Shown: positions 30,998 to 46,925 of the stretch, in pieces
Layout of the letters: each line of letters starts with the position of its first letter
Numbering within the stretch: position 1 is the stretch's first letter
DNA from: Brevundimonas subvibrioides
Lineage (GTDB): Bacteria > Pseudomonadota > Alphaproteobacteria > Caulobacterales > Caulobacteraceae
Length of the DNA: 64,000 nt
Assembly: GCF_002280785.1 (NCBI RefSeq)
Contig: NZ_NCEQ01000002.1
Span: 124,001-188,000, forward strand
Direction: 5' to 3'
The notes under the pieces: model-generated
Seen by the model: only the letters and a program-made list of their open reading frames with translations
Database searches by the model: none
Told to the model about the DNA's origin: nothing
Program-made: the position numbers and the translations under genes

Positions 30998-32635
30998 ATG
31001 TCCGCACGCCTCCGCCTCGCCGTCCTCGCCGCCTGCGTCGTTTCCGCCTCGGCCGCCGTCGCCCAGGAAGGCCGGGTCGATCCGGAGCGGCTGAACGCGG
31101 CCGTCGCCGTGCTCGCCGGGGATGAATTCGGAGGCCGCGCCCCGACCACGCCGGGCGAGGAGAAGTCGGTCACCTGGATCGCGGGACAGTTCCAGGCCCT
31201 CGGCCTTGAACCCGCCGGCGACGACGGGACCTGGTTCCAGACCGTGCCGATCAACCGCTTCGTCCAGGACGGACCGGCGGTGATCACGGCCAGGGCCGGC
31301 GGCGAGACGATCACGCTCCAGCGCGGGACCGACATCATCGCCAACAGCCACCGGCCCCAGGACCACATCACCATCACCGAAGCGCCGGTGGTCTTCGTCG
31401 GCTACGGCGTCGATGCGCCGGAGCGCGGCTGGGATGACTTCAAGGGCGTCGATGTGCGCGGCAAGGTCTTGCTGATGCTGGTCAATGACCCGGACTTCGA
31501 GGTCGCCGCCGACAGCCCCACGGCCAACCGTTTCGACGGCCAGGGCATGACCTGGTACGGCCGCTGGGTCTATAAATTCGAGGAGGCGGCCCGTCGCGGC
31601 GCGGCGGCGGTCTTCGTGATCCACGAGACGGCGGGCGCCGGCTATCCGTGGAACACCTTGCAGAACTCCTCCACCGCCCCCGGCCTGGACATCGTCCGCG
31701 CCGATCCGGCGCGCGAGCGGGTTCAGGCCCAGGGCTGGATCCAGCAGGCGCAGGCGGCGCGGTTGATGACGGCGGCGGGCCTCGACTATGCGACCCTGAA
31801 GACCGCGGCCCAGTCGTCGGACTTCCGCCCCGTGGCGCTGGACGGAGTGACGATGTCGCTCGATTTCGGCCAGACCTTCAGCCGCCTGACGACGCGCAAT
31901 GTCGCCGCCCGCCTGCCCGGAACGACCCGTCCGGACGAGACCGTCATGTACGGGGCCCACTGGGACGCCTACGGCCGCGCGGTCGCCAATGCGGCCGGCG
32001 ACGACATCTATAACGGCGCCGTGGACAACGCGACGGGCGTAGCGGCGGTGCTGGAACTGGCGCGGCTCTACGCCGAGGCCCCGCGCACGGACCGATCGGT
32101 CCTGTTCGTCTCCTGGGCGGCGGAGGAGGCCGGGCTGCTCGGCGCCTACCACTATGCGGCGCATCCGCTGGTTCCGCTGGAGACCACGGTCGTCAACATC
32201 AATATGGACAGTTTGCTGCCCGGCCCGGCGTCGTCCGAGATCGTGGTCATCGGCTTCGGCAAGACCGACGCCCAGAACCGGCTCGCCGATCTGGCGTCGG
32301 AGGAGGGGCGGTCCCTGATCCCCGATCCGGCCCCCCAGGTCGGCGCCTTCTATCGCTCGGACCATTTCCCGCTGGCCAAGATGGGCGTCCCGGCCCTGTT
32401 CGCCGCCGCCGGCTTCACGGGCGCGTCCGACGCCAGCCGCGCCTATGTCCGCGACCGCTATCACCAACCGACCGACGAATGGGCAGCGGAGTGGTCGATG
32501 GAGGGGGCGGCCCGGGACGTGCAACTGCTCTACCGGGTCGGCCGCGATCTGGCCGAGGGCTCGGACTGGCCGGCCTGGACGCCCGGCAACGAGTTCGAGG
32601 CGGTGCGTCAGGCCAGCGCGGCGTCTCGGGAGTAG
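30998..32635 (+). CDS. secreted M28 family zinc aminopeptidase
   Basis: 545 residues from ATG 30998; signal peptide ends at ASAAVAQ. A PA-domain insertion lies around 115-260. The di-zinc site shows GAHWDAYG (His), GAVDNATGVAAVLELA (Asp), SWAAEEAGLLGAYHY (catalytic and metal Glu), INMDSLLP (Asp) and FYRSDHFPLAK (His). Probably periplasmic peptide degradation. It is the last chromosomal gene before the island junction; its stop is 82 bases from the tRNA fragment. Confidence 0.92.
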   Translation: MSARLRLAVLAACVVSASAAVAQEGRVDPERLNAAVAVLAGDEFGGRAPTTPGEEKSVTWIAGQFQALGLEPAGDDGTWFQTVPINRFVQDGPAVITARAGGETITLQRGTDIIANSHRPQDHITITEAPVVFVGYGVDAPERGWDDFKGVDVRGKVLLMLVNDPDFEVAADSPTANRFDGQGMTWYGRWVYKFEEAARRGAAAVFVIHETAGAGYPWNTLQNSSTAPGLDIVRADPARERVQAQGWIQQAQAARLMTAAGLDYATLKTAAQSSDFRPVALDGVTMSLDFGQTFSRLTTRNVAARLPGTTRPDETVMYGAHWDAYGRAVANAAGDDIYNGAVDNATGVAAVLELARLYAEAPRTDRSVLFVSWAAEEAGLLGAYHYAAHPLVPLETTVVNINMDSLLPGPASSEIVVIGFGKTDAQNRLADLASEEGRSLIPDPAPQVGAFYRSDHFPLAKMGVPALFAAAGFTGASDASRAYVRDRYHQPTDEWAAEWSMEGAARDVQLLYRVGRDLAEGSDWPAWTPGNEFEAVRQASAASRE

Positions 32636-32717: not shown

Positions 32718-32762
32718 TGGTGGATGCTGCAGGGATTGAACCTGCGACCCCCTCGGTGTGAA
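32718..32762 (-). other. tRNA-Val(CAC) 3' fragment: left attachment site (att) of the island
   Basis: On the minus strand the bases give anticodon loop TTCACAC (anticodon CAC), 3' anticodon stem CGAGG, variable loop GGGTC, T arm GCAGG-TTCAATC-CCTGC, acceptor AGCATCC, discriminator A and encoded CCA. The next five bases, GGCCC, cannot pair with CGAGG, and no D arm or 5' acceptor follows, so only the 3' half is present. Integrases of the P4 type recombine in tRNA 3' halves and leave such a copy at one end. No intact tRNA is found in the window. Confidence 0.85.
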
Positions 32763-32955
32763 GGGCCTCAAAGGCAATTTCAGGGCATTTCAGGACTGTG
32801 CATAACTCGCCAAATGTCTGAAAAACGTCAGTTTATCTTTTCAGCACTTTTCTTGCTTTTTCTGGGAATTCTGCATCTGGCGCCCCACCAGCGCCCCAGA
32901 AACTGCTAGGTTGGCACGCGTTTGATTTGCAGCGCAGGCGCGAGGAGAGCGCATT

Positions 32956-34479
32956 GTGGCCCGCCTTCTGCTTACCACGGACCGTCAGATCTCTGGGCTG
33001 AAACCCGCTGACAAGGTCTACGAGATGGGGATCGGCGGCAGCCGGGGTTTGGGGGTTCGCGTCTTTCCCACGGGACTGAAGCAATTCGAGTTCCGCTATG
33101 TGGCCGCGAACGGCACGAGGCGACGTCTCGGCCTCGGCGCCTATCCCGACCTGTCGCTGGCCGAGGCCCGCGCCAAGGTCGCGGGATTGCGGATCGCGGT
33201 GGTGGACGGCGGCGATCCCGTCGCGGAAAAGACCGCCGCCCGTGAACGGGCGCGAACCGGCGAAACCCTCGACGAACTCGCCGAGGCCTACTGGCAGGCG
33301 GCGACGGTGGGTCTGCACGGTGGGCGCCGTCGGCCGAAGCGGGAAGTCACCCTCTGCAACGAACGCCAGATGTGGCGGAACCACATCAAGATCCCGCTGG
33401 GCGCGCGGCCTTTCACTGAAATCCGGCGCGCGGACGTCAAGGTCTTCATGCGCAAGCTGGTAACCGACAGCGGGTTGGCGGCCGCCAGCGTGGCGTCGAT
33501 CGGCGCCGTGCTGCACGCCGTCCTGGGGTTCGCCGTGCTCGAGGAGCGTATCGAGTCCAATCCCGCGCTCGGCCTGGCCCGCCCGCTGGCCCTCACGTCG
33601 CGCGAGCGCATGTTTGACGACGCGGCCCTGCGGACGCTTTGGGACGCTGCGTCGGAGGCTTCCGTGCCGCGGGGACCGGGCGAGAAGACCGCAGGGGTTC
33701 ATGCGCGTCTGGAGCCGGCGATGGGGCTGGCCATCCAGCTGTTGATGCTGACCCTGACGCGCCGCAACGAGGTCGCCGGCGCGCGAAAGACGGAGTTCGA
33801 CCGGACCGCGAAGATCTGGACCATCCCTTCGGAGCGGGCCAAGGCCAAGCATCAGCACGTCGTGCCGTTGGGGGATGACGCCCTGGAGGTGCTGGACGTC
33901 GCCTGGGCCCTCGATCCGGGCAGTCCCTACCTCTTTCCATCGACCCGATCTCCGGGCCAGCACCTGGACCCGCACGCCATCACTCGCGCGTTCGCCCGAA
34001 CCTGCGCGCGCAGGAAGATGGCGGTGGGGTCGCCTCATGACGTCCGGCGGTCGGGCGCGACCACGCTCACCGGGCGGTATGGCGTCAGCCGCTTCGTGGT
34101 CGGGCTGGTGCTCGGACACACGCCCAGCGAAGGCGCGGCGGTCACCAGCGTCTATGACCGGCACACCTATGTGCCGGAGAAGCGGGCGGCGCTGGAGCTG
34201 TGGGCGAACCATCTCGTCCGGCCAGGCCGCGAGATCGCGACGCCAAAGGCGCTGGGGGACCTTGCGGCCGGTACACATGTGGATGAGGCCAAGGCCCGCG
34301 CGCTTGCCCTGTGCCAGAAAGGGGATTTGCACGGGGCAGTGCTCTCGATCTGCATGGACCTCTCGCGTCATCCGGCCACCGCGAGCTCGCATCTGACGAT
34401 CCTTGGCAAGGTTGGCCTCGAACGCGCCGCCGCAGGCTCGCGCGCGCAGGTCGAGGACTGGATCAGCGGCTTCCGATAG
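32956..34479 (+). CDS. int: P4-type tyrosine site-specific integrase
   Basis: 507 residues from GTG 32956, preceded by GAGGAGAG. The N-terminal DUF4102 arm-binding domain (GLGVRVFPTGLKQFEFRYV, RRLGLGAYPDLSLAEARAK) is followed by the SAM-like core-binding domain and the catalytic domain. Catalytic residues are Arg269 in LTRRNEVAG, His361 and Arg364 in SPHDVRR, His388 in VLGHTP and Tyr400 in VYDRHTY. About 95 residues follow the tyrosine, an extension with ICMDLSRHPATASSHLTILG that recurs in the remnant at 60 kb. It probably drives excision and insertion at tRNA-Val. Confidence 0.94.
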   Translation: MARLLLTTDRQISGLKPADKVYEMGIGGSRGLGVRVFPTGLKQFEFRYVAANGTRRRLGLGAYPDLSLAEARAKVAGLRIAVVDGGDPVAEKTAARERARTGETLDELAEAYWQAATVGLHGGRRRPKREVTLCNERQMWRNHIKIPLGARPFTEIRRADVKVFMRKLVTDSGLAAASVASIGAVLHAVLGFAVLEERIESNPALGLARPLALTSRERMFDDAALRTLWDAASEASVPRGPGEKTAGVHARLEPAMGLAIQLLMLTLTRRNEVAGARKTEFDRTAKIWTIPSERAKAKHQHVVPLGDDALEVLDVAWALDPGSPYLFPSTRSPGQHLDPHAITRAFARTCARRKMAVGSPHDVRRSGATTLTGRYGVSRFVVGLVLGHTPSEGAAVTSVYDRHTYVPEKRAALELWANHLVRPGREIATPKALGDLAAGTHVDEAKARALALCQKGDLHGAVLSICMDLSRHPATASSHLTILGKVGLERAAAGSRAQVEDWISGFR

Positions 34480-34721: not shown

Positions 34722-35108
34722 CTAGAGGCGCTGGAGAGCCATCAGCAGTTTCTCGCCGACCTCGCGGGCCTTCTCGTCCAGCGCCGGATTGCCGACGACC
34801 AGCATCGAGGCGACCGGATCGATCGCGGCGACCTCGGTCCTGCCTGCCGAAATCTCCTGCACCACCACATTGCAGGGCAGCAGGGCGCCGACCTTGTCTT
34901 CGATCTGCAGGGCCTCGTGGGCCATTCGCGGATTGCAGGCGCCCAGGATCAGATAGGGGCGAAACTCCACGTCGATCTTGGTCTTGAGAGTTTTGCGGAC
35001 GTCGATCTCAGTGATCACGCCGAAGCCTTCTTCACTCAGGGCCTCGCGGGTGGCCGCGACCGTTGTGTCGAAGTCGAGGTCCAGGGTTCTGGAAAAATAG
35101 TAGCTCAT
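34722..35108 (-). CDS. DUF302 domain protein
   Basis: 128 residues from ATG 35108. The sequence LDLDFDTTVAATREALSEEG, VRKTLKTKIDVEFRPYLILG, GACNPRMAHEALQIEDKVGA, LLPCNVVVQE and the late EVAAIDPVASM are the DUF302 fold. These small proteins often sit beside thiosulfate/sulfide or heavy-metal genes, with unknown biochemical role. Two cysteines (GACNP, LPCNV) are family-typical. It is downstream of the TauE/SafE gene with a 20-base gap, so it is probably the last gene of the persulfide operon. Confidence 0.87.
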   Translation of the reverse strand: MSYYFSRTLDLDFDTTVAATREALSEEGFGVITEIDVRKTLKTKIDVEFRPYLILGACNPRMAHEALQIEDKVGALLPCNVVVQEISAGRTEVAAIDPVASMLVVGNPALDEKAREVGEKLLMALQRL

Positions 35109-35128
35109 GGCGATGCTCCTTGGTGAGA

Positions 35129-35908
35129 TCAGAACGGCCCGAGGGTGCGAGCCAGCATGTAGAGGGCGACAACAAAGATGAGACCGGCGAACAGCACGTT
35201 CAGCGCGCCGCGTTTGCGGTTCATGATGCGGGCGACGCGCGCGCCGATCAGCCCTCCGACCACGCCGCCGGCGATGAAAATCGCGGCGACCCTCCAGTCC
35301 ACGAGGCCGGCCCAGGCGTAGCTGGAGGCCGTCGTCACCCCGAAGGCGGCGACGCCGACCAGCGACGAGGCCACGGCATTCAGGATCGGCATGCCAGTAG
35401 CGAGGATCAGACCTGGAACGATCAGGAAGCCTCCGCCGATGCCGAAGAAGCCGGACAGCAGTCCTGTCCCGAACCCCAGGCCGACAAGCCGGGGACCATT
35501 TTCCGCGCTCAGGCGAACATCGGGCAGTCCTTGGCCGGAGCGGTTCCTCAACATCAGGCCGCCGACTACCAGCATCAGCACAGCGAACAGCGCCAGCAGG
35601 TTGTCGCCATCGACCTGGCGGCCCGCGAACGACCCGATCAAAGCGCCGACGACCCCGGCGGCGGCGAAAACGCTGGCACAGCGCCACTTGACCGCGCCCT
35701 TGCGGGCGTGACTGACCAGGTTGATACCGGCGTTGGACGCCACCGCGACCGCGCTCGTGCCGATCGCGACATGGGCGTCGCCGATACCAACCAGGTACAC
35801 CAGCAAGGGAACTGCCAGGATCGATCCCCCGCCGCCGACGAGGCCCAGAGAAAACCCCACCAGTCCGCCCGAGGCCAGCGTGAGCGCGTCCCTGGCTAGA
35901 TCGATCAT
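35129..35908 (-). CDS. TauE/SafE family sulfite exporter-like permease
   Basis: 259 residues, about eight transmembrane helices in two repeats. The repeats begin VGFSLGLVGGGGSILAVPLL and GFGTGLLSGFFGIGGGFLIV, the Gly-rich family signature. Likely exports sulfite or another sulfur oxyanion, which is the end product of the persulfide dioxygenase encoded nearby. The ATG at 35908 shares a base with the stop of the rhodanese gene (TGATG), so translation is coupled. Confidence 0.9.
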   Translation of the reverse strand: MIDLARDALTLASGGLVGFSLGLVGGGGSILAVPLLVYLVGIGDAHVAIGTSAVAVASNAGINLVSHARKGAVKWRCASVFAAAGVVGALIGSFAGRQVDGDNLLALFAVLMLVVGGLMLRNRSGQGLPDVRLSAENGPRLVGLGFGTGLLSGFFGIGGGFLIVPGLILATGMPILNAVASSLVGVAAFGVTTASSYAWAGLVDWRVAAIFIAGGVVGGLIGARVARIMNRKRGALNVLFAGLIFVVALYMLARTLGPF

Positions 35909-36435
35909 CAGGCCGTCATCAAGGGTGGGGCGTGGCGATTCCAGGGGGCCAGCGCCAGGATGCGGGCCATTCCGCAAAAGCCGGTCAAGCCGGACAGGGT
36001 CAGGCCGAGGCCGACAAACATTGGAAGGGTCAGGAACCAGCTTGAGACGAGGATGCCGAGAAACACGCCGACAGCGACCAGGCCGCCCGCGACAATGAAG
36101 ACCTGACGCTGGAGGTCTATCGGTTGGGATCGATCCCTGATGGTGGTCAAGCCCGCCTTGCGCCAGGCTTCGACGCCGCCGTCCACGACATACCAGTCGC
36201 AGGCCCCGGCCTTGGCCGCCAAGCGATCAATGTTCATGTCCGTGCGAGACCCGCTGCGGCAGTGGAAGATCAGGGTCTGCTCCGGAGACGCCTCGCTGTC
36301 GTCCCATGCGGACATCGGGTTCAGGACGGCGCCCGGGATGCGTTCGCGCGCATGTTCGTCGGCGTCGCGGATATCGACGAGCAAGGCGCCGGCGCGTACC
36401 AGACGCTGAGCTGTTTCAGGCGATACATATCTCAT
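35908..36435 (-). CDS. membrane-anchored rhodanese (YgaP-like)
   Basis: 175 residues from ATG 36435. Residues 1-105 are a rhodanese domain with active-site Cys in IFHCRSGSRTDMN. Residues 115-165 form two membrane helices (VFIVAGGLVAVGVFLGILVS, LPMFVGLGLTLSGLTGFCG) of the DUF2892 type. This is the architecture of YgaP, a membrane sulfurtransferase. Its role here is to move sulfane sulfur near the membrane. Coupled to the TauE/SafE permease gene. Confidence 0.9.
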   Translation of the reverse strand: MRYVSPETAQRLVRAGALLVDIRDADEHARERIPGAVLNPMSAWDDSEASPEQTLIFHCRSGSRTDMNIDRLAAKAGACDWYVVDGGVEAWRKAGLTTIRDRSQPIDLQRQVFIVAGGLVAVGVFLGILVSSWFLTLPMFVGLGLTLSGLTGFCGMARILALAPWNRHAPPLMTA

Positions 36436-36479
36436 GCCTGGGCTCGTCCGCCCCGTTGCTTCCGGTTCGGCTGAGCGTC

Positions 36480-36803
36480 TCATTGACCGTCCTCGACCGG
36501 GAGGCCGGCGGCGCGCCAGGCGTCGATCCCACCCTCGAGAATGAAGATCTCCCCGGAGCCGGCCTTGGCCGCGAGACCATCGGCGTTTGCCTGCGTCCGA
36601 CGACCGCTTCTGCAGTGGAAGATCACCGCCTGTCCCTCGATTCGTCTCAGGTCCCGGGAATCGATCGCCGACAACGGGAGGCTTCGCGCCGCGGGGATAC
36701 AGGCCCCGACGCGTTCGTCCGGCTCGCGGATATCGACCAGTAGGGCGCCGCTCCGGATCCTCTCCGCGGCGTCCGTCGGCGTGATGGGTTTGACAGGGGT
36801 CAT
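36480..36803 (-). CDS. single-domain rhodanese sulfurtransferase
   Basis: 107 residues, one rhodanese domain. The active loop is IFHCRSGRRTQAN (Cys in CRSGRR), and the C-terminal EGGIDAWRAAGLPVEDGQ is typical. Cytoplasmic. It probably carries persulfide sulfur between glutathione and other acceptors. The ATG at 36803 overlaps the repressor stop (ATGA), and the membrane rhodanese follows 44 bases later, so all form one operon under the repressor. Confidence 0.9.
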   Translation of the reverse strand: MTPVKPITPTDAAERIRSGALLVDIREPDERVGACIPAARSLPLSAIDSRDLRRIEGQAVIFHCRSGRRTQANADGLAAKAGSGEIFILEGGIDAWRAAGLPVEDGQ

Positions 36804-37174
36804 GTCGGCTCTCCGCGTTCGATATCGACCAGGTCGGGGCAGAAGATGTCCCGGAGCAGCGCCAGCAAGCGCCCGGCATTCGGATCCGCGACCCGATAGA
36901 AAATTGTCTGGGCCTCGCGGCGGAAGGCGACCAGGCCGTCCTCGCGCAGCCGGGCGAGGTGTTGGGATAGCGCCGACTGGCTCAGGCCGATCTGGCTGGC
37001 CAACTGGCCGACCGACATCTCCTCCGCCGAGATCAGGTGACAGAGGATGAGCAGGCGACGCTCATTGCCCAACGCCCGCAACAGCTGGGCCGCTTCCCCG
37101 GCCCGTGCTTCGAAATCCGCCAAGGTGAGCGCGGAAAGTTCTGCCGTCGGCAGGAACAAATTTGTATCTCTCAT
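36800..37174 (-). CDS. bigR: BigR/SqrR-like ArsR family persulfide-responsive repressor
   Basis: 124 residues. A winged helix-turn-helix of the ArsR family (LLRALGNERRLLILCHL, GQLASQIGLSQSALSQHLARL, wing around VAFRREAQTIFYRV). Cysteines are at 45 and 112 only, the positions expected for the redox pair of BigR/SqrR that forms a tetrasulfide bridge with persulfides and releases DNA. First gene of the minus-strand operon and divergent from the dioxygenase across an AT-rich operator region. The ligand is inferred from the Cys pair and the neighbours. Confidence 0.9.
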   Translation of the reverse strand: MRDTNLFLPTAELSALTLADFEARAGEAAQLLRALGNERRLLILCHLISAEEMSVGQLASQIGLSQSALSQHLARLREDGLVAFRREAQTIFYRVADPNAGRLLALLRDIFCPDLVDIERGEPT

Positions 37175-37178
37175 GTTT

Positions 37179-37198
37179 CTAATTTAGGTATTGCTAAT
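37179..37198. promoter_or_regulatory. probable BigR-type operator between repressor and dioxygenase genes
   Basis: AT-rich island in a GC-rich region with interleaved half-sites: CTAA, TTAG, then six bases, then CTAA (TTAG at 37184-37187, CTAA at 37194-37197). BigR boxes are AT-rich palindromes of this kind. It lies five bases from the repressor start and 34 from the dioxygenase start, so it can control both. Confidence 0.65.
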
Positions 37199-37231
37199 AT
37201 AAGTGTCAACCACGCTTTGCAGGAACTCGAC

Positions 37232-38107
37232 ATGACCATCGGCCCGAACATCCAGGCCTTCTTCGACGAGCCCACCCACACAGTGACCTATCTGGTGTCC
37301 GATCCGGCGACCGGTCAGGCGGCGGTGATCGATCCGGTTCTCGACTACGACCACCCATCCGGCGAGGTGGACACGCGCTCCCTCGCGACTGTGCTCGCCG
37401 CCGCCGAAGCGGGCGGTCTGACTGTGGTCTGGGCGCTGGAGACCCATGTTCATGCCGACCACCTCAGCGGAGCGCCCTACATCAAGCTCCGTACCGGCGC
37501 CGCGATCGGGATCGGCGAGCATGTCCGGGACGTGCAACGCATCTTTCGGCCCATCTTCAACGCTGAGGATGTGAAGGCGGACGGCAGCGACTTCGACAAA
37601 TTGTTCGCCGACGGCGAGCGCTTCGGGATCGGCGCGCTGGAGGTCGAGGTTCTCCATACGCCCGGTCATACGCCGGCCGACGTGAGCTACAGGATCGGAG
37701 ACGCGGTCTTTGTCGGCGACACGCTGTTCATGCCCGACTACGGCACCGCCCGCGCGGATTTTCCCGGCGGCGACGCACGTCAGCTCTACCGTTCAATCCG
37801 CAAGCTGCTCGACCTGCCGCCTGAGACGCGTCTGTTCCTGTGCCACGACTACAAGGCGCCGGGCCGGGATGCCTATTGTTGGGAGACGACGGTTCAGGAT
37901 CAGCGGAAAACGAGCGTCCATGTGCACGACGGCGTCACCGAGGACGCGTTCGTCAAGATGCGGACGGAACGGGACGCGACCCTTTCAGCCCCGGCGCTGC
38001 TCATCCCGTCGATCCAGGTCAACATTCGCGCCGGCAAATTTCCACCTGCCGAGGCCAATGGCGTCAGCTACCTGATGATCCCCGTAAAGCCGAAGGTCGG
38101 TGACTAA
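37232..38107 (+). CDS. persulfide dioxygenase-like metallo-beta-lactamase fold protein
   Basis: 291 residues from ATG 37232. MBL-fold motifs: ETHVHADHLSGAPYIK (H-x-H-x-DH), LHTPGHTPADVSY (His), GDTLFMPDYGTARADFPGGD (Asp) and LFLCHDYKAPGRD (His). This matches the ETHE1/Blh family, which oxidises glutathione persulfide to sulfite. A separate N-terminal phosphatase domain, as in some Blh proteins, is absent. Divergent from the BigR-like repressor, so likely induced by persulfide. The in-frame extension upstream crosses the repressor gene and is rejected. Confidence 0.9.
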   Translation: MTIGPNIQAFFDEPTHTVTYLVSDPATGQAAVIDPVLDYDHPSGEVDTRSLATVLAAAEAGGLTVVWALETHVHADHLSGAPYIKLRTGAAIGIGEHVRDVQRIFRPIFNAEDVKADGSDFDKLFADGERFGIGALEVEVLHTPGHTPADVSYRIGDAVFVGDTLFMPDYGTARADFPGGDARQLYRSIRKLLDLPPETRLFLCHDYKAPGRDAYCWETTVQDQRKTSVHVHDGVTEDAFVKMRTERDATLSAPALLIPSIQVNIRAGKFPPAEANGVSYLMIPVKPKVGD

Positions 38108-38122
38108 CGACGAACAAGTCGC

Positions 38123-39349
38123 TCAGGGGATATTCCTCCTTCCGCCCGGATGACGCGATGCCATGAACACAAGCCCCGCCATCGCCAGCAGGGCGAACAC
38201 GGCGCCGGCGAGGAAGGTCGCCTCCGGTCCCATCCGGGACCACAGCAAGCCGGCGACGACGCTGGCCGCCAGCAAGGTCACGCCGCTGGCGAGATTGAAC
38301 AGACCAAACGCCGTCCCGCGCATATGCGACGGGGCGGTATCCACGACCAGGGCGGCCAGAAGTCCCTGAGTCAGGCCCATGTGCAGGCCCCACAGGGCGA
38401 CGCCGATCAGAACGCCGGGTACGGTAGCCACGAAGGCGAGGACCACGTCGGCGGCGATCAGGACCGCCAGGCCGATGATGAGCAGCCAGCGTCGATCCAT
38501 CCGGTCCGACAGGCTCCCGGCCGGCGCCGCCACGACCGAATAGACCACATTCATCACCACCATCACCACCGGCACAAGAGCGATGGCGAGGCCGACATCC
38601 TGCGCCCTCAACACCAGGAAGGCTTCGCTGAACCTCGCCATGGTGAACACCACGCCCAGGGCGACGACAGACCAGAACGCTCCGCCCATCGCCAGCACAT
38701 CGATCCATCGGATCGGGGGTCGCGGATGACGCACGCCGTCGACGGGACGGGGCTCCTTGACCGCGAAGATGAGCACCGCGACCGCAAGCGCGGCTGGAAC
38801 CACGGCCCAAGCGAACACCGCGCGGATATTGCCCGCGAGAATGAACATGAGGGCCATCGCGATGAGCGGTCCGGCGAAAGCGCCGATGGTGTCGAGCGAT
38901 TGACGTAGACCGAAGGCCGCGCCGCGGATCTCGGGCGGCGCGATGTCGGCGACCAAGGCATCGCGCGGCGCGCCCCGAATGCCCTTGCCGATCCGATCGG
39001 CGAACCGCGCGCCGAAAACTTCGAACGGCGTCACCGCGACCGGAAAGATCGGCTTGGTCAACGCGCCAAGGCCATAGCCTGCCACGGCCAGCCACTTGCG
39101 GTGACCAAGGCGGTCGCTAAGCCAGCCCGAGAAGACCTTGGTGATCGATGCCGTGGCTTCGGCGATGCCTTCGAGCAGTCCCACCAGCGCGACGCTCGCG
39201 CCCAGGCCGGTCACCAGAAAGACGGGTAGCAGGCTGTGAATCATCTCCGACGAGACGTCCATGAACATGGAGACGAAGCCGATCGCCCAGACGCTTCTGG
39301 GCACCGCTCTCAGGCCGGTCTTGAGGGGCGCGGTCATGCGGCGGATCAT
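38123..39349 (-). CDS. MFS transporter, substrate unknown
   Basis: 408 residues with about twelve hydrophobic helices. MFS signatures are SGWLSDRLGHRKWLAVAGYG between helices 2 and 3 and a repeat-like AGSLSDRMDRRWLLIIG in the second half. GKGIRGAPRDALVADIAPPE after helix 4 is characteristic of a widespread MFS group without known cargo. It converges with the dioxygenase gene (15-base gap). ATG 39349 is used; ATG 39337 is equally possible. No regulator next to it. Confidence 0.88.
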   Translation of the reverse strand: MIRRMTAPLKTGLRAVPRSVWAIGFVSMFMDVSSEMIHSLLPVFLVTGLGASVALVGLLEGIAEATASITKVFSGWLSDRLGHRKWLAVAGYGLGALTKPIFPVAVTPFEVFGARFADRIGKGIRGAPRDALVADIAPPEIRGAAFGLRQSLDTIGAFAGPLIAMALMFILAGNIRAVFAWAVVPAALAVAVLIFAVKEPRPVDGVRHPRPPIRWIDVLAMGGAFWSVVALGVVFTMARFSEAFLVLRAQDVGLAIALVPVVMVVMNVVYSVVAAPAGSLSDRMDRRWLLIIGLAVLIAADVVLAFVATVPGVLIGVALWGLHMGLTQGLLAALVVDTAPSHMRGTAFGLFNLASGVTLLAASVVAGLLWSRMGPEATFLAGAVFALLAMAGLVFMASRHPGGRRNIP

Positions 39350-39702
39350 AGCGCGGATCGGCAGCTCCGAACGAGCGGAGGTTCAGCGGTCGAGTTTCGG
39401 AAGGTCGCCAAGCCATCTAGACGGCCACCGGTATCGGCCGTGGGCCTCGGGACAATCGCCTTCAGGAGGCTGAACGGACGCTGCACCACAAACTGTGTGA
39501 TCGAACCGCGATGCTGTGGTCTCGGGGGATGCGGACCTTCGCCGCCGCCGGCGTCCTCACGGATCTGAATGACGACAGCAGAGAAATCGCTCTTCCTGTC
39601 TGCCATCGAGCTTTGCGACTTCACATCGCCGCAGAACGGCGCCGCAACGGTGGACTCCATACATTCCGCTGCCAACTGGGGCCAAGGAGTTCAGTTGGTC
39701 GG
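39350..39702. other. 353-base stretch without a supported gene
   Basis: Open frames of about 110 codons exist on both strands, but none shows recognisable domain sequence, a good start or neighbour coupling. Codon use reads as a shadow. It must hold the promoter of the MFS gene. No clear hairpin or repeat was found. Confidence 0.5.
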
Positions 39703-40326
39703 TCACGGAAGACTGAACAGCACCTTGATCCAGCCGATGGTCTGGAAATGCTCCAATCCCTCGAACAAGGGAAAGGCCAGCAGCATGATGAGGCCGTCGC
39801 CCAGCGTGGTGAGGAAGAACCGAGGCCGAACCTCGATGACCTCACGGTCGCGCCACTTGGAAAGGTCGGGCCAGAAGCGTGGGGTCCGGCCAACGTAGGC
39901 CGCGTAAGTGGATCCGAAGGCCTGAGCGAGCCAGGCCTCCTCGCGTTTTACTGTGGCGGCGAACACGAGGACGGCGATCAGAAGGAAGAGGCCCGCAATG
40001 GTCGCGCTACCGGTCTGAGCGCCCATGCCGAAAGCGCCGAGGAAGCTGAAGACATAGAGCGGATTGCGCGTGATCGAGTATGGGCCGCGATCGACGATCT
40101 CGGCCTTCTTGCGGCCGCCGATATAGAGGGAACACCAGGCGCGTCCGACAATGCACAGGACGATGGCGGCGATGCCGACGGTTTCCAGCCCTTCGTGCAG
40201 GACAGTTTCGCCGCCGATCGTCTGGCTGATCGCCGAGAGGGCGACCACCCCGAGGATCGCGACCAGAAGGACCCCCTTTCTGATCAGTTGAACGCGGCGA
40301 AGGTCGAGGGTCTGGGTGATTGACAT
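39703..40326 (-). CDS. isoprenylcysteine carboxyl methyltransferase-like (PEMT/ICMT) membrane protein
   Basis: 207 residues from ATG 40326. Four or five helices. The family block is VDRGPYSITRNPLYVFSFLG (normally RGPYxxxRHPxY), followed by KREEAWLAQAFGSTYAAYV, the usual EE-x-x-L and Y-x-x-Y region. Here the His of RHP is replaced by Asn, which also occurs in some members. The acceptor is unknown. It lies 35 bases after the COG4705 gene and belongs to the same operon as the two-component system. Confidence 0.85.
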   Translation of the reverse strand: MSITQTLDLRRVQLIRKGVLLVAILGVVALSAISQTIGGETVLHEGLETVGIAAIVLCIVGRAWCSLYIGGRKKAEIVDRGPYSITRNPLYVFSFLGAFGMGAQTGSATIAGLFLLIAVLVFAATVKREEAWLAQAFGSTYAAYVGRTPRFWPDLSKWRDREVIEVRPRFFLTTLGDGLIMLLAFPLFEGLEHFQTIGWIKVLFSLP

Positions 40327-40361
40327 TGGAGATCCAAGGAGTCGAGAAACGGAAAGAAGGG

Positions 40362-41141
40362 TCAGGCTGCCAGCGCCCGTTTGCGGCCCGCCAACCACGT
40401 CGTCACTGCGATCAATGCGACAAGCACGATGAGCAGCACAGCCGTCGATCCGGTGGTGCCGAAGCCCAGGCCGCCTTTGTCGGGCGTTTTGGTGAGAAGG
40501 TCGCCCATCGTGGCCCCGAACGGTCGGGTCAGCACGAAGGCGATCCAGAACAGCACCGTGCGCGAGGTACGGGTGAAGAAGTAGGCAAGCACGGTCAGGC
40601 CAATCCCGGCCGTGATGAGGAGATTGCTGAGCCCGTAACCGAGGCCCGAGCTGTCGGCCAAGAAGTCTCCCAGGGCGGTGCCCAGGGTGTTGGAGACGAG
40701 GATCGCGATCCAGTAGAAGGTTTCGATCTTCGGATCGCGGATGTGATCGACGGCGATCGATCCCGTCGTCAGGCGCCAGGTCGCCAGCACGGCGACCAGC
40801 GTTGTGGCGATAAGGGTCGCGCCGGTGGCGTAGCCCAGGCCGAGACTTCGATCCATGAAGTCCGAGATAGTCGTGCCCGCCGTGCTGGTGGCGAGGATGA
40901 CGGCCCAGTACAGGAATGGGTGGAATCGCTTGGCCCTCAGCTGGAGGACGAGGGCGACGATGAAGAAGCCGATCAACACCAACGAGCTCGCGGCGTAGCC
41001 GATCTTGAGCGTCATCGACAGCAGGTCGCCGCCGGTTTCGCCGACGGTGGTGGCGCAGATTTTCATGACCCAGAAGGCGAAGGTGACCGTGGCGACCTTG
41101 CTCGCGGTCTCTGTGATCGGAGGAGAGCCGGCATGGGTCAT
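40362..41141 (-). CDS. COG4705-type membrane-anchored protein
   Basis: 259 residues with eight hydrophobic helices in an apparent fourfold repeat. Elements of the form FWxxKxxATTxGETxGD recur: FWVMKICATTVGETGGD, STAGTTISDFMDRSLGLGYATG, SNTLGTALGDFLADSSGLGYG and RPFGATMGDLLTKTPDKGGLG. The conserved Thr/Gly/Asp in each repeat suggests an ion path, perhaps for a metal, but transport has not been shown for this family as far as I know. The ATG overlaps the histidine kinase stop (ATGA). Confidence 0.82.
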   Translation of the reverse strand: MTHAGSPPITETASKVATVTFAFWVMKICATTVGETGGDLLSMTLKIGYAASSLVLIGFFIVALVLQLRAKRFHPFLYWAVILATSTAGTTISDFMDRSLGLGYATGATLIATTLVAVLATWRLTTGSIAVDHIRDPKIETFYWIAILVSNTLGTALGDFLADSSGLGYGLSNLLITAGIGLTVLAYFFTRTSRTVLFWIAFVLTRPFGATMGDLLTKTPDKGGLGFGTTGSTAVLLIVLVALIAVTTWLAGRKRALAA

Positions 41142-42520
41142 GCGGTAAGGCTTTCTGTGGTCGCGCGCTCGAACCCGATCGAAGCGACCAGGCCGGGCTC
41201 GCCGGATTGAAGTGAAAGTCGGGCATCGTGCAAGGCGGCGATCGCGGCCACCAGCGCGAGGCCCAGGCCGGAGCCCGGAGATCCCCGGCTGTGATCGAGG
41301 CGATAGAAGCGTTGGGTGACCTTCGACAGGTCGGCCGAAGGGATCCCCGGGCCGTTGTCCCGAACCGTTAGGATGACCCTGCCGTCCTCAATGCGGGCGT
41401 CGAGGCCGATGTGAGCCGGCGCGGGCGAGTGGACAATCGCGTTTTCGACCAGGTTGGACAGCATCTGAACCAGGAGATCCTCATCTCCGTTGATCACGGC
41501 CTCGGTGTCCCTTCTGAACTCCAGCCCGTGGCCGGTTTGCTCGGCGACCGGCTGATAGGCCTCGAACACCCGTTGCATCATCTGGCCGGCGTCGATCGGG
41601 CCGAAGCCCGACCGCCCGGCGCCTGCCTCGATCTGGGCGATCCGCAGAAGCGCCGCGAAGATGTCGAGCGTTTGGTCGAGCTCTGTGAGGGAGAGATCGA
41701 CCGTCGCCTGAAAGGCCTCGACCGTGGTGAGGTTCGCCCTCGCATGTTCCAGGCGATGCCGCAGCCGGTTCAGCGGGGTGCGCAGATCGTGGGCGATATC
41801 CGATGAGACGTGGCGTATCGCCTCCATCGAGGCCTCCAGTCGGTCGAGCATGCGATTGAGGTTCCGCCGCAAGGCGTCGAACTCGGATCCAAGTCCGATC
41901 GGCGGCATTCGGTCGCTCAGATGACCCTGCATGATCCGCTCCGTCGCCGCGTTCACGCGGTCGAGTCGGCGGGCCAGGACTGCGCCCGACGCCAGTCCTC
42001 CGATCGCCGCGAGCACGGTCATGCCGATCACGCCCCAGATCGTGAGAAGCCCCATCCATTCGCGCAGTTCATGAATGGCGTAGGTGCTCTTGCCGACCAC
42101 AAGGGAACCCTGCGGGAGTTGAGTGACCAGCACCTCGATCGTGGCCAGTTCGCCGGAAGTTTCCCGACCGTCCGGCGGGGCCGGGGCCGTGACCTCGCTG
42201 AAGCCTGTGACGGTGGGTCTTGTTGGAAGCCCGCCCGCGAGGACGCGGCCCTCGGCGTCCAGAACGAGGTATTTCAGAGAGTCGGCGACCTGGATTCGAG
42301 ACGCGACCCGGCGCGCCACGATCGCAGGGTTCGCAGCCCCGCCGTCCGACAACAGGATCCGGGTTTCCGATCGCAAGTCATCGCGGATCGAAGCGTTCGC
42401 ATAGCTGGCGACGGACCAATAGAAGGCTGTGAACATCAGGGCGCCGCCGAGCGCGAAGATCACGGCGAACACGGCCGCCAGCCGCAGGGCGGACGAGGCG
42501 AGAAATCTAGGCGCGGTCAT
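41138..42520 (-). CDS. sensor histidine kinase
   Basis: 460 residues from ATG 42520. Two membrane helices (LAAVFAVIFALGGALMFTAF and LLTIWGVIGMTVLAAIGGLA) flank a sensor domain of about 120 residues. Then come HAMP, the HisKA block VSSDIAHDLRTPLNRL (phospho-His), N box NLVENAIVHS, and ATP boxes DNGPGIPSAD and GSPGSGLGLALV. Starts 14 bases inside the end of the response regulator gene. A GTG at 42541 is an alternative. The stimulus is unknown; the setting suggests metal or envelope stress. Confidence 0.93.
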   Translation of the reverse strand: MTAPRFLASSALRLAAVFAVIFALGGALMFTAFYWSVASYANASIRDDLRSETRILLSDGGAANPAIVARRVASRIQVADSLKYLVLDAEGRVLAGGLPTRPTVTGFSEVTAPAPPDGRETSGELATIEVLVTQLPQGSLVVGKSTYAIHELREWMGLLTIWGVIGMTVLAAIGGLASGAVLARRLDRVNAATERIMQGHLSDRMPPIGLGSEFDALRRNLNRMLDRLEASMEAIRHVSSDIAHDLRTPLNRLRHRLEHARANLTTVEAFQATVDLSLTELDQTLDIFAALLRIAQIEAGAGRSGFGPIDAGQMMQRVFEAYQPVAEQTGHGLEFRRDTEAVINGDEDLLVQMLSNLVENAIVHSPAPAHIGLDARIEDGRVILTVRDNGPGIPSADLSKVTQRFYRLDHSRGSPGSGLGLALVAAIAALHDARLSLQSGEPGLVASIGFERATTESLTA

Positions 42521-43184
42521 CAATCGTATACCCCGCGCCACGGACCGTATGGATGAGATCCTGACCGAAGGGCCGATCGACCTTGGCCCTGAGCCGGCTC
42601 ATATGCGCATCAACCAGATTGGTCTTCGGATCGAAGTGAAATCCCCAGACCTTGTCCAGGAGCATGGCCCGCGTGACGACTTGACCGCTATGGCGGACAA
42701 GAAACTCCAGAAGCTTGAATTCCTGGGGCGTGAGGTCCAGCCGGGTGGTTCCGCGCCGCGCCGTTCGGGCGGCGAGATCGAGCTGCAGATCGCCCACGTC
42801 GAGGACGGGTCTCAGATCGATGGACGGTGAGCGCCTGCCCAGGGCCTGAACCCGCGCCAATAACTCGCTGAAGGCGTAGGGCTTGACCAGATAGTCGTCG
42901 CCGCCGGATTCGAAGCCTTCGACACGATCCCTGACGCCACCGACCGCGGTCAGGAAGATGACGGGCGTCGCGTTGCCCGCGTCGCGAACCGCCCGGATCA
43001 CGGACAGGCCGTCGCCGCCCGGCACCATCCGATCGATGATCAGCACGTCATGGGCGCCCTCGAGCGCCAGATGCAGGCCGTCGTCCGCCGTCGCGGCAAC
43101 ATCCACCGTATGACCGGCTTCGGTGAGACCGCGCCTCACAAACTCGGCGGTCTCGTGGTCGTCTTCCAGAAGAAGCAGTTTCAT
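42507..43184 (-). CDS. OmpR family response regulator
   Basis: 225 residues from ATG 43184. The receiver has acidic LLLEDDHE, phospho-Asp in VLIIDRMVPGGDGL, and Lys in DDYLVKPYAF. The C-terminal winged helix (LTPQEFKLLEFLVRHSGQVV, KTNLVDAHMSRLRAKVD, GAGYTIDD) resembles CusR/CzcR/QseB-type regulators. Paired with the overlapping kinase gene; PepSY gene upstream is a likely target. Confidence 0.94.
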   Translation of the reverse strand: MKLLLLEDDHETAEFVRRGLTEAGHTVDVAATADDGLHLALEGAHDVLIIDRMVPGGDGLSVIRAVRDAGNATPVIFLTAVGGVRDRVEGFESGGDDYLVKPYAFSELLARVQALGRRSPSIDLRPVLDVGDLQLDLAARTARRGTTRLDLTPQEFKLLEFLVRHSGQVVTRAMLLDKVWGFHFDPKTNLVDAHMSRLRAKVDRPFGQDLIHTVRGAGYTIDDRA

Positions 43185-43236
43185 GAGCGCGCCCTGGCGA
43201 CGGGTGCGCCGCCCTGATGAGGGGCGGCGTCCCGGA

Positions 43237-43596
43237 TCAATCGTTGTCTTCGGGGCCTTCACCGGCCTCGTCGGCTTCCTCGGCGGCCGCGGTCACGGCG
43301 CCGGTGGCCATATCCACGACATAGGTCGCGACGTGGTCGCCGGCCGCGATCTCCACTTCCCAGCTGCGGCCGCTTTCGTCGTCGAACGAGGCCTCCATCG
43401 CCTTGCCCGACCCCTGGCGCTCGGCGATCACGACAGCCTGGCCCAGCGAGACGCGGGCTCCGTTGACAGCGGCGATCTCGCTGCGTTCGTCCTGCTTCGG
43501 CGCGCCGCTGTTGGCGGCGACGGCCGCGCCGCCGATGGCCGCGGCCGCAACAAGCGCCGCCGCGGACAAACCGACAACGAGTTTCTTGCGGGTCAT
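43237..43596 (-). CDS. exported PepSY domain protein
   Basis: 119 residues from ATG 43596, with GGAG upstream. Signal sequence KKLVVGLSAAALVAAAAIGG, then one PepSY domain (VSLGQAVVIAERQGSGKAME, SWEVEIAAGDHVATYVVDMA, TGAV) and an acidic tail rich in Glu. PepSY proteins next to two-component systems often modulate the sensor from the periplasm. It starts the operon. Confidence 0.85.
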   Translation of the reverse strand: MTRKKLVVGLSAAALVAAAAIGGAAVAANSGAPKQDERSEIAAVNGARVSLGQAVVIAERQGSGKAMEASFDDESGRSWEVEIAAGDHVATYVVDMATGAVTAAAEEADEAGEGPEDND

Positions 43597-43998
43597 TTGA
43601 AATCTCCAACCGCCCAGCAGCGGGCGTAGTCGGACTTTAGGCCTGACAACATTCGCCAACGCTCACGACGGGATTACAAGTGGGGCACGAGGAAACAGAG
43701 CGATGAAAATCCTCTATGAGGCAGGCGGAGCATCGGCCGGGGGCTTCCGGAGGGGCCGGCTTCACCAAGCGTCGTTGCCGTGAAGGCCTGATTGAGGTCA
43801 TAGGCCCTGACCGGCCCTAGGCATCAGCACAAGGCCCCGCACCCGACGTCCTGCCCCTGTCGGACGGCGACTGGCGGCCGGTCCGGCGCGTCAGATCAGC
43901 CTGCCCCGCCAGGATCATCGGGAAGGACAGCCCGCATTCGATATTCGCAAGGGCCGTTGATCCGCCACCGCCGGCGGCTTGACCGGGGCCAAGGTGGG
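43597..43998. other. 402-base stretch between the PepSY and DUF1289 genes
   Basis: No coding region with support. The part next to 43596 must carry the promoter of the PepSY-kinase operon on the minus strand. Short open frames on either strand show no domain. I saw no hairpin with a T-tract. Confidence 0.5.
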
Positions 43999-44238
43999 TC
44001 ATCTCTCTTGATTCTGGAACAGATCGGCGGGCGCTGCGGATGGTCGATCGGCTTGGGATCTTCCTTGATCCTTCAACCGTCGCAGACGTCGCGTGAGATC
44101 CTTGAGGATCAGCTGTCGGGCCCGTGGCTGCATTTTGCGCCAGGATCGGATCTCCGGAACCGAGCGGCCGCAGCCCACGCACCAGCCGGTTCGGCCATCG
44201 AAGCGACAGACGTCGATGCAGGGCGAATCAGAACTCAC
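43999..44238 (-). CDS. DUF1289 family protein
   Basis: 79 residues from a GTG at 44238. The Cys-rich core SPCIDVCRFDGRTGWCVGCG followed by RSVPEIRSWRKM is the DUF1289 motif, with four Cys in CxxxC...CxxC arrangement, so probably a metal or Fe-S site. The C-terminus is basic. The GTG overlaps the stop of the P-type ATPase gene (GTGA). This coupling with a metal pump is unusual for a family normally found beside housekeeping genes. Confidence 0.82.
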   Translation of the reverse strand: MSSDSPCIDVCRFDGRTGWCVGCGRSVPEIRSWRKMQPRARQLILKDLTRRLRRLKDQGRSQADRPSAAPADLFQNQER

Positions 44239-46337
44239 GGCGTGGCCGCGGAAGGCAGGACGCCGATCGGGACCGGGGCGGGGCTTGCCTCATCCGCTCT
44301 GGCCACGGCAGGCAGGAGCCGGGCCGAATTGAGGATGAAGGCGAGCTCCGATGCGACGTGGATGAAGGCGGCGAACAGCGGGTTGAGAAAGCCGGCCGCC
44401 GCCAGGCCGATTCCCAGGGCGTCGATCGCCAGGGTGCCGGCGAAATTCTGCCAGATGATCCGACGGGTCCGCCGCGCGATCCGCAAGGTGTCCACGAGAC
44501 GCACGAGATCATTTCCCAGAAGGACGACGTCGGCGCTTTCCTGGGCGACATCCGTTCCCGAGCCCATGGCGATGCCGACGCTCGCGGCGGCCAGAGCGGG
44601 GGCGTCATTCACGCCGTCGCCCACCATGGCGACGATCCGCTTCTGCCCCACGAGCGCCTGGATGCGGGCGAGTTTGTCTTCCGGGAGCAGGCCCGCCTCG
44701 ATGTCCCGGATGCCGAGGCTGGCTCCCACGGCCTGGGCGACGGGAAGGGCGTCGCCGGTCAACAGAAGGGTGCGGATGCCGAGGCCGTGCAGCGCTTCTA
44801 TGGCGCGCTTGGCCTCCGGTCGTACGGTGTCGGCGACCGCGATCGCGCCCAGCAGGCAGCCGTTCCGGGCGACGTATACCTCTGAAGCCGCTTGGACGCC
44901 GACGCTGAGCGTGCCGGGGATCGACACCGCGTTGTCCTGCATCCAGGCCTGATTGCCGACAAGGATGACGGAGGCACCCACCTTGGCGACGATCCCTCGG
45001 CCTGGCGTGTAGGCGAAGTGTTCCGGTTCGGTCACCGTTCGTCCCCGGTTCAGAGCGTAGGCGACGATCGCCTTGCCGAGGGGGTGTTCGGATCGTAATT
45101 CGGCCGAAGCCGCCGCGTCGAGAAGGTCGTCCGGCGTTGCGCCGGCCACGGTCACGACCGCCTGGACCTCGGGCCGACCGAAGGTCAGGGTCCCCGTCTT
45201 GTCGAGCACGACGGTATCGACCTTGCCGAGCGTCTCCAGATGGACGCCGCCCTTGATGATCGCGCCGAGCCGGGCGGAGCGACCGATGCCGCCGAGGATG
45301 GCCAAGGGCGTGCCGGCGGCGATGCCGCAGGCCCCGGCGACGATGATCACTGAAATCGTGGAGTAGATGTTTTGAGTGATCAGATAGGTCAGGACAGCCG
45401 AGCCGAGGGCGAAATAGACGAGATAGCCCGCCATGCGATCGGCGAGCCGTTGAACCGGCGCTCGGGAGCGCTCCGCGCGCTCCACCGCTTCGATGATCTT
45501 GCCGTAGCTTGTGTCCTTGCCGATACGCTCGGCTTGAACTTCGAGCGCGCCGGACTGATTGATGGATCCGGCGAAGACAGCGGTCCCTTCCGTCTTCTCC
45601 ACCGGCATGGATTCACCGGTGATGCGGGACTCATCGACGAACGAATAGCCTGACAAGACCGCGCCATCGACCGGAATACGTCCGCCTGGCGCGACGAGGA
45701 TCGCGTCGCCGATGTTGAGTTCCTCGGCCGAAATGGTCTGGATGGCGCCCGTCCGGCGAACCGAGACCTCGCGGGGCAGGAACTCCAGCAGATCGCGGAT
45801 GGCCCTGCGGCCGCGGCCGACCGTCAAACCCTCCAGCACCTCGGCCACCAGCACGAAGAGCGTGATGATCAGCGCCGTGAAGAACTCGCCGATCGCCGCC
45901 GCGGCCACGATGGCGATCGTCATCGACAGTTCCATGGTCATGCGACGCTGGAGGACGTTCTCGAAGGCTTCCTTCAGGATCGGCCAGCCGCCCACCAACA
46001 GACCGACGATTCCGATCAGGCTGATCGTTTCGAGCGGCTCCCAAACCCGGAACCATACGAGCGCTGCTGTCACCGCCACAAAACCGATGCGCACCGCCTC
46101 CGTCCACTCAAACGGATGCTCGTGATCGTGACCATCGTCGTCGTGGTCATGGTCGTGATCGTGGTGATCGCGGTCATGGCCGGCGTGAACATGGCCTTGC
46201 CCGGAATGGTCCCCGGAATCCGGGCCGGCAGGAACGATGGTGCGGGCCTCCGCCTGGTCGGCGAGGGTGGGGACGTTCCGGCCGGACTGATCGACCATGG
46301 GAGAGTCCATTTTCTGGCTGAATGCGGGAGAGGTCAT
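44235..46337 (-). CDS. P1B-type heavy-metal ATPase with His-rich N-terminus
   Basis: About 700 residues. The N-terminal approximately 75 residues lack a CxxC metal domain but hold a long His/Asp tract (around HAGHDRDHHDHDHDHDDD). TGES, DKTGTLTFGRP and GDGVNDAPALAAAS are intact, so the pump should be active. In the sixth-type membrane helix, where CPC or SPC is usual, it reads VAGACGIAAGTPLAILGG, i.e. GAC in place of CPC. This leaves the ion (Co, Ni, Zn, Cd or Mn) uncertain. ATG 46337 is used; ATG 46310 or 46298 are possible. An RcnR-like sensor gene lies upstream, probably co-transcribed. Confidence 0.9.
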   Translation of the reverse strand: MTSPAFSQKMDSPMVDQSGRNVPTLADQAEARTIVPAGPDSGDHSGQGHVHAGHDRDHHDHDHDHDDDGHDHEHPFEWTEAVRIGFVAVTAALVWFRVWEPLETISLIGIVGLLVGGWPILKEAFENVLQRRMTMELSMTIAIVAAAAIGEFFTALIITLFVLVAEVLEGLTVGRGRRAIRDLLEFLPREVSVRRTGAIQTISAEELNIGDAILVAPGGRIPVDGAVLSGYSFVDESRITGESMPVEKTEGTAVFAGSINQSGALEVQAERIGKDTSYGKIIEAVERAERSRAPVQRLADRMAGYLVYFALGSAVLTYLITQNIYSTISVIIVAGACGIAAGTPLAILGGIGRSARLGAIIKGGVHLETLGKVDTVVLDKTGTLTFGRPEVQAVVTVAGATPDDLLDAAASAELRSEHPLGKAIVAYALNRGRTVTEPEHFAYTPGRGIVAKVGASVILVGNQAWMQDNAVSIPGTLSVGVQAASEVYVARNGCLLGAIAVADTVRPEAKRAIEALHGLGIRTLLLTGDALPVAQAVGASLGIRDIEAGLLPEDKLARIQALVGQKRIVAMVGDGVNDAPALAAASVGIAMGSGTDVAQESADVVLLGNDLVRLVDTLRIARRTRRIIWQNFAGTLAIDALGIGLAAAGFLNPLFAAFIHVASELAFILNSARLLPAVARADEASPAPVPIGVLPSAATP

Positions 46338-46427
46338 GCCGACGACGCACAAGGCTTCAACGGTGGTGCGGTCCGGACTCTCCGGTCGCGAGGTCGATCA
46401 TCGTCGTCCGTTATCGTCACGGGGCCG

Positions 46428-46703
46428 CTACTTTGAATAGCGACGGATGATGGCGATGAGTTCGTCGGCTCCGCTCCGGCGCTCGGCCTCGTTCAGATCG
46501 GGGCGGGCCACATGGTGCCGCAGGTGGTCCTCGATCAGTTCCTCCAGCAGCCCGCCCATGGCTCCCCGCGCCGCGGCGACCTGCTGCAGAATTTGCGAAC
46601 AGCCGGCTTCGGACTCGATCGCCCGCTCGATCGCGCCCAGCTGGCCAGCGATGCGCCGGACACGCGACACGAGCTTCTTCTTGTTGGTGACTGTGTGAGC
46701 CAT
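46428..46703 (-). CDS. RcnR/CsoR family metal-sensing repressor, RcnR-type ligand set
   Basis: 91 residues from ATG 46703. An all-helical CsoR/RcnR family protein: KKKLVSRVRRIAGQLGAIER, then SEAGCSQILQQVAAARGAMG and ELIEDHLRHHV. The metal positions are His3, Cys35, His60 and His64, the set used by the Ni/Co sensor RcnR; a CsoR copper sensor would have Cys36-His61-Cys65. Inference: Ni or Co (perhaps Mn) controls the P1B ATPase gene downstream. Its own start overlaps a matching operator. Confidence 0.9.
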   Translation of the reverse strand: MAHTVTNKKKLVSRVRRIAGQLGAIERAIESEAGCSQILQQVAAARGAMGGLLEELIEDHLRHHVARPDLNEAERRSGADELIAIIRRYSK

Positions 46704-46705
46704 AG

Positions 46706-46722
46706 ATACTCCCCTATAGTAT
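46706..46722 (-). promoter_or_regulatory. RcnR-type operator (ATACT-CCCCTAT-AGTAT)
   Basis: Inverted arms ATACT and AGTAT around a C-run on the plus strand, i.e. TACT/AGTA arms with a G-tract on the minus strand, as in known RcnR/CsoR sites. The run GGGGAG within it sits six bases before the repressor ATG and can also serve as the ribosome-binding site. A second CTCCCCTAT lies 18 bases on (46727-46735). Confidence 0.75.
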
Positions 46723-46763
46723 GTTGCTCCCCTATGCGAGACCCGATAAAGGACGACATCCTG

Positions 46764-46864
46764 TTGGGGAGTAGCTGCCGGTGTTGATCGCCGGGGTCGG
46801 GTCAACACACTCGCGCTTCGGCGCGTGGTCCGACCAGCGGAACCGCCGCCTAGCGAGACCAGCG
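46764..46864 (+). ncRNA. yybP-ykoY manganese riboswitch upstream of mntP
   Basis: Conserved elements occur in order: GGGGAGTAGC at 46766-46775, GTCAACACACTCG at 46801-46813, and GAGACCA at 46855-46861, with pairing segments between them. E. coli mntP and alx leaders carry the same blocks. The motif senses Mn(II) and turns on efflux genes; the neighbouring gene is mntP, which fits. No search was run; the call rests on matching blocks and position. Confidence 0.82.
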
Positions 46865-46925
46865 CATTCCACCGCCGCACCGGCCGGAGTGGAAGCGCTG
46901 TTCATCGCCCGGTGGATGCCCCGTC

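Follow-up and report, generated by a model that had tools for sequence, protein, structure and literature searches.

Islands and conjugative elements residing in the anticodon loops of tRNA genes are a standard kind of mobile DNA, and in the Islander account anticodon-centred attachment sites are counted in 2083 of 3919 islands (PMC4383910). The closest described systems come from Erythrobacter, where integrative conjugative elements (ICEs) occupy tRNA-Val-CAC and the tRNA stands at the element end; that description implies, without quite stating it, the same integrase-distal polarity as we report below (PMC4919336). By that published description the two are alike in their alphaproteobacterial host and tRNA isoacceptor, and differ in the genus and order of the host (PMC4919336). 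ICEs with conjugation genes have also been described in a Brevundimonas strain, their ends being other direct repeats (PMC10269605). At the level of paper listings, our literature search found no paper on a tRNA-Val island in Brevundimonas.

Here we analyse a window of 64,000 bp, bases 124001-188000 of contig C1 (225,803 bp; 37.8 kb extend beyond the window end) of a Brevundimonas assembly. We conclude with high confidence that a large island with many metal genes, probably an ICE or derived from one, has inserted site-specifically into the anticodon loop of tRNA-Val(CAC), after an M28 peptidase gene, the tRNA presumably being rebuilt at its far end. The empty site, the tRNA fragment, the integrase, the cargo and the same architecture in relatives are direct observations. 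The island type itself is well known; our addition to it is a Brevundimonas family whose boundaries are defined, together with isoacceptor switching and one flip of polarity. Like Islander-type tRNA islands (PMC4383910), this one has an integrase and a displaced 3′ tRNA fragment; the intact tRNA needed for a full signature is absent from the assembly. As with the self-overlapping promoter of KplE1 IntS (PMC2951348), an attachment arm precedes the integrase gene, and on the strength of that position the promoter of the island integrase probably overlaps integrase binding sites. In contrast to KplE1 IntS, the integrase here sits beside the displaced fragment, the intact tRNA being 61-272 kb away in relatives, so that searches for tRNA-adjacent integrases would miss the island.

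The left boundary and the empty site

The features around the left end of the island are as follows.

30998..32635, + strand: M28 peptidase, the chromosomal gene bordering the island on its left (Pfam Peptidase_M28; longer ORF 30749-32635)
32718..32762, − strand: displaced 3′ half of tRNA-Val(CAC), taken as attachment-site core and left boundary of the island
32763..32955, + strand: inner attachment arm from core to integrase, with TTTCAGG repeats (seen by eye) and paired GCCCC units
32880..32899, + strand: a pair of GCGCCCCA units at 11-bp spacing, candidate arm-type sites for the integrase
32956..34479, + strand: tyrosine integrase, P4-type, 507 aa (Pfam Arm-DNA-bind_3 and Phage_integrase domains)

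A sequence-only reading of the window had recognized the 3′ half of a tRNA-Val(CAC) gene whose neighbouring bases fail to complete the anticodon stem. Comparison with the intact tRNA-Val(CAC) gene of the relative G034 confirms both points: the fragment equals its 3′ 45 bases with zero mismatches, the run of identity is exactly 45 bases and breaks at the anticodon stem, leaving the fragment to end in the anticodon loop, and ARAGORN, run on the window, gives no tRNA call. The fragment is the sole copy in the whole assembly in a search allowing up to three mismatches; within the window a 31-base portion of it matches once, where shuffles give an expectation of zero.

In both G034 and G053, an uninterrupted tRNA-Val(CAC) gene lies directly after the same M28 peptidase gene, on the opposite strand, and constitutes the empty site. 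The 20 kb compared on the M28 side of G034 form blocks collinear with window 9.3-32.76 kb at 77-92% identity (those 20 kb include nothing equivalent to window 27.6-30.9 kb), and left-hand synteny ends where the 45-base tRNA identity ends. The 16.3 kb on the other side of the G034 tRNA gave no match on C1 from 104001 to the contig end. Because collinearity with G034 runs up to base 32762 and no match lies beyond the tRNA, we place the boundary between chromosome and inserted DNA at 32762/32763, and 32718-32762 reads as the remaining end of a chromosomal tRNA-Val(CAC) gene split by the island. The point at which chromosome gives way to acquired metal-handling genes, the left edge of at least 69 kb of mobile DNA, is thereby fixed to the base. 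The sequence-only reading had put the element on the right and the displaced chromosomal 3′ half at 32.7 kb, and had looked to strains lacking the island for a direct junction; the empty sites agree, G034 and G053 joining the M28 gene straight to the intact tRNA-Val(CAC). No intact tRNA-Val(CAC) was found to the left of the fragment, and the M28 gene adjoins an intact tRNA in these two relatives.

The genome G022 carries a sister element whose two ends lie on separate contigs. On one, a block matching window 19.5-26.0 kb stops a few bases before the fragment and integrase, and since that block directly precedes the fragment, we read it as the same locus minus the genes between 26.0 kb and the fragment. 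On the other, the intact tRNA is followed by a block that also follows the tRNA in G034, with genes that, from their translations, we take to be SDR, phosphatase, GlmU and RpiA. Elsewhere the M28 neighbour is missing: we examined 13 Val(CAC)-fragment loci from other relatives, each with 1.3 kb or more of sequence to the left, and found it at none of them (18 fragment loci, reduced by three at another tRNA and two with fewer than 400 bases of left flank); M28 next to tRNA-Val(CAC) is a local feature, known from G034 and G053.

The assembly is a draft of 36 contigs (3.31 Mb, 99% complete, 3.69% contamination), and such fragmentation and contamination are what would favour an artefact at 32.7 kb, in which the tRNA sequence would have served as a false bridge in C1 between the chromosome and a foreign contig. 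We regard this as extremely improbable: the junction of fragment, 193 bp and integrase recurs in other genomes (in a spacing check that leaves out L160, 27% identical), and the fragment carries the allele of its own lineage, with 0 mismatches to G034 and G038.

The integrase family and its paired ends

The integrase ORF begins 193 bp inside the boundary, a core-to-integrase gap identical in length in the closest relatives, and is directed into the island. Its earlier assignment as P4-type stands, given the Arm-DNA-bind_3 and Phage_integrase domains and the residues R269/R270, K296, H361, R365, H388 and Y400, invariant in 32/32 aligned relatives, which we take to be the R-K-H-R-H-Y catalytic set of tyrosine recombinases. 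The N terminus matches CP4-like integrase structures, and the family shares with P4/CP4-like integrases (PDB 3jtz, 3ju0) this arm-binding domain and the invariant tyrosine recombinase residues; compared with those proteins, one sub-group has about 85 additional C-terminal residues.

Across the genus, 113 of 131 genomes match the integrase at E <= 0.001, mostly distantly. A class-wide sample, which included at least two genomes of the genus without a match at E <= 1e-40, yielded matches at that threshold in 2 of 384 other genomes, at 36-39% identity. The integrase search gave 30 loci, one per genome, with 26 at 52% identity or more; this set of 26 omits the named loci L146-L159, whose genomes were already counted, and G143, with 66 residues at 85% and no locus, was left out of the counts. 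A Val-tRNA 3′ fragment lies upstream of the integrase in 22 of the 26 loci, being of the Val(CAC) type in 14, Val(TAC) in six and Val(GAC) in two, as assigned by comparison with tRNA calls and 45-mer matches. The remaining four comprise two cut by a contig start, G155 without a tRNA, and G045, where the integrase lies beside an intact tRNA-Val(TAC).

These last two loci merit separate description. The conserved left arm of G155 (L122:1150-1500) abuts sequence without a tRNA, as if by secondary-site insertion or rearrangement. In G045 (L128:1067-1143), an integrase of 67% identity stands on the 3′ side of the intact tRNA, the reverse of the usual arrangement. An integrase tree unites the six Val(TAC) users in one group with 100/100 support and sets G045, the seventh, apart on a long branch, while leaving several deeper forks open.

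If the tRNA is split at one end and rebuilt at the other, a second copy of the 3′ half is expected. Scanning the CAC and TAC 45-mers in 26 genomes, we found one in 17 of the 20 genomes with a CAC or TAC fragment upstream of the integrase, and none in the source genome, G050 or G023, all of which are drafts. Where both copies share a contig they have the predicted same orientation in 7/7 pairs, and in six of the seven the integrase and the second copy are to the same side of the fragment, G049 conforming only if its single contig is circular; the copies are spaced 61.0 kb (G001), 76.4 kb (G117), 96.7 kb (G055), 98.9 kb (G118), 122.2 kb (G152), 167.8 kb (G049) and 272.2 kb (G151) apart. ARAGORN called an intact tRNA-Val at 14/14 second copies tested and at 0/11 fragment copies tested. 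From the orientation and intact-tRNA results, the two-ended model holds as a rule for the Brevundimonas integrase family.

Both ends also carry paired GCCCC units. The pattern GCCCC-N6-GCCCC occurs in 27 of the 31 left ends tested (excepting G153, G115, G012 and G045; G022, whose left end is a contig start, is outside the count), compared with 0.19% of dinucleotide shuffles, and in 14/14 right ends, at most 260 bases from the intact tRNA; eight of these 14 carry one identical 21-base sequence, the end sequences being related and their pairs therefore not independent events. The units on both arms are likely integrase arm sites.

We suggest the following route to the present arrangement. The integrase encoded at 32956-34479 would join attP of a circular element to attB in the anticodon loop of tRNA-Val(CAC), with the paired 11-bp GCCCC units on both arms serving as its arm sites. 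The chromosomal 3′ half would be left behind at 32718-32762, and at the far end the chromosomal 5′ half would gain the element's own copy of the 3′ half, making the tRNA whole again. The element would be an ICE or derived from one, and presumably arrived by conjugative transfer.

We lean, by a modest degree, towards a Brevundimonas-centred island family in which the integrase lies far from the rebuilt tRNA, which moves among Val CAC, TAC and GAC tRNAs while keeping its GCCCC pairs, and of which G045 is a flipped member. If so, the family would be a natural series for changes in both the tRNA target of an integrase and the polarity of its attachment site; the genus-wide paired ends offer material for studying target switching between valine tRNAs.

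The far end in the source genome

The sequence-only reading had placed a rebuilt tRNA at the far end of the element. Sister elements have an intact tRNA in that position, but none was found in the source genome, and the tRNA-Val(CAC) with the same 45-base 3′ end expected downstream on the contig is absent from the 37.8 kb of C1 right of the window, where ARAGORN calls no tRNA. The assembly contains no second copy of the 45-mer, no second site for a merged Val-tRNA pattern, and no Val(CAC) among its 35 tRNAs; the right-end repeat was likewise not found. DNA of the G034 right flank gave only short or repeat matches in the source genome among the best 40 of 370 and the best 40 of 666 candidates, the latter search being crowded by a dispersed repeat, and GlmU gave only a weak partial match with 20/20 candidates scored; the absence of the right flank rests mainly on the GlmU search. 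A stretch of about 180 bp within the G034 query (L065:945-1137, from G034:C19) accounts for dozens of 54 listed matches across the source contigs, at about 69-97% identity, and probably represents a dispersed repeat family.

GlmU is a core gene. With both it and the tRNA missing, the absence of tRNA and flank is most simply explained by a gap in the assembly, and we infer that the rebuilt tRNA-Val(CAC) of the source genome lies inside that gap; the chromosome piece from tRNA-Val(CAC) to glmU would then be what the assembly lacks. An island whose far end had been deleted, with the tRNA never or no longer rebuilt and GTG codons read by tRNA-Val(TAC), would equally account for a 99%-complete assembly with 35 tRNAs that includes neither a tRNA-Val(CAC) nor a second 45-mer, and G050 and G023, though both drafts, also have no second copy. 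We consider such a stranded state improbable, as the neighbouring block including GlmU was also not found, which points to a gap, and as 17 of the 20 fragment-bearing genomes retain a second copy, intact in 14/14 tested.

Contig C8 holds the sole TrbE match of the source genome. At about 2.5-78 kb (L202-L206) it contains a second island-like, paralogous region, with diverged duplicates of metal genes on the C1 island and a TrbE that shares 90% identity with the G152 protein. Since C8 reaches 332,885 bp and includes tRNA-Gly and tRNA-Ala genes, it would be a separate element with chromosome beyond. An intact tRNA-Gly(GCC) is present at C8 91256-91327, and on its 3′ side a different 11-bp repeat pair, GGTAGCGG, seen by eye, suggests another element end.

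Cargo and the remnant of a second integrase

The visible island spans at least 69,041 bp and runs to the end of C1; the earlier estimate of at least 31 kb was too low. Its G+C content is 67.7%, against 68.8% left of the island. Our home-made gene prediction places 64 genes besides the integrase on it; the part of the cargo that lies within the window is as follows.

34722..38107, strand not given: DUF302, TauE/SafE exporter, rhodanese, ArsR-type regulator, metallo-beta-lactamase-fold protein (Pfam)
38123..50280, strand not given: MFS, PEMT methyltransferase, HAMP/HisKA histidine kinase, P-type ATPase, metal-sensitive repressor, second MFS (Pfam, part of the genes)
51722..57494, − strand: CusA/CzcA-type RND efflux pump, adaptor and outer-membrane protein (Pfam ACR_tran, HlyD, OEP)
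60070..60573, + strand: remnant covering the last third (residues 340-507) of a further, related integrase (85% identity, same orientation)
60609..64000, strand not given: MerR regulator, cation efflux protein, genes leading to an RND pump (Pfam, genes 62356-64772 apart)

Beyond the window end, the RND pump lies at 64776-68021 on the window's scale. A Pfam scan of 27 of the 64 genes, made together with the integrase remnant, assigns 13 of the 27 proteins, by family name, to metal or sulfur handling: TauE, rhodanese, three P-type ATPases, a metal-sensitive repressor, two RND pumps, an adaptor, an outer-membrane channel, a cation efflux protein, a multicopper oxidase and FTR1. The other 14 are regulators, MFS and other transporters, enzymes, or proteins with no family assignment. 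We take the genes at 34722..38107 to be a sulfide-handling-like module, and plasmid records matching the RND pump at 51722..57494 are annotated CusA/CzcA. A plasmid origin of the cargo was considered and rejected: 135 plasmid records match 24.8 kb of the island, the best-ranked covering 20% at 75.9% identity, and integrase matches are below 60% identity in 1136/1136 plasmid records. Five plasmid records have a shorter region at 80-95% identity to the island.

Much of the island, out to 100,344 on the window's scale, aligns with the opening 46 kb of the G152 element. Near its far end that element has a TraG-type coupling protein, a T2SSE-family ATPase, TrbE, TrbL, CagX and TrbI, in a scan of 10 chosen proteins, and looks like an ICE. 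No conjugation gene was seen on the visible 69 kb among the 27 of 64 predicted genes scanned, and at the DNA level nothing on the island matches the G152 conjugation region. As G152 (122 kb) is the closest fully spanned relative and has Trb-type conjugation genes, the island here is probably an ICE or the remnant of one.

The integrase remnant raises the question of whether the island arose in a single step. Two related elements may have accreted at one tRNA, the newer running from 32.7 to about 60 kb and the older lying beyond, with the remnant at 60.07-60.57 kb as the decayed left end of the older and the whole now one mobile unit, if mobile. The remnant's 85% identity and shared orientation are consistent with this, as are two integrase-plus-fragment copies in G046 and in G018 and the integrase 3′ remnants of G153, on its contigs C28 and C14; related elements could plausibly have arrived in tandem, with deletion afterwards. 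Weighing against it, no tRNA core adjoins the remnant at 60070-60573, collinearity between the G152 element and the island extends to either side of the remnant point, the one G152 match to the remnant being G152's own integrase, and a truncated integrase could come through other recombination. We hold this composite origin to be a real possibility, just short of one that we would favour. The remnant itself sits in frame behind a short non-integrase stretch (ORF 59932-60639).
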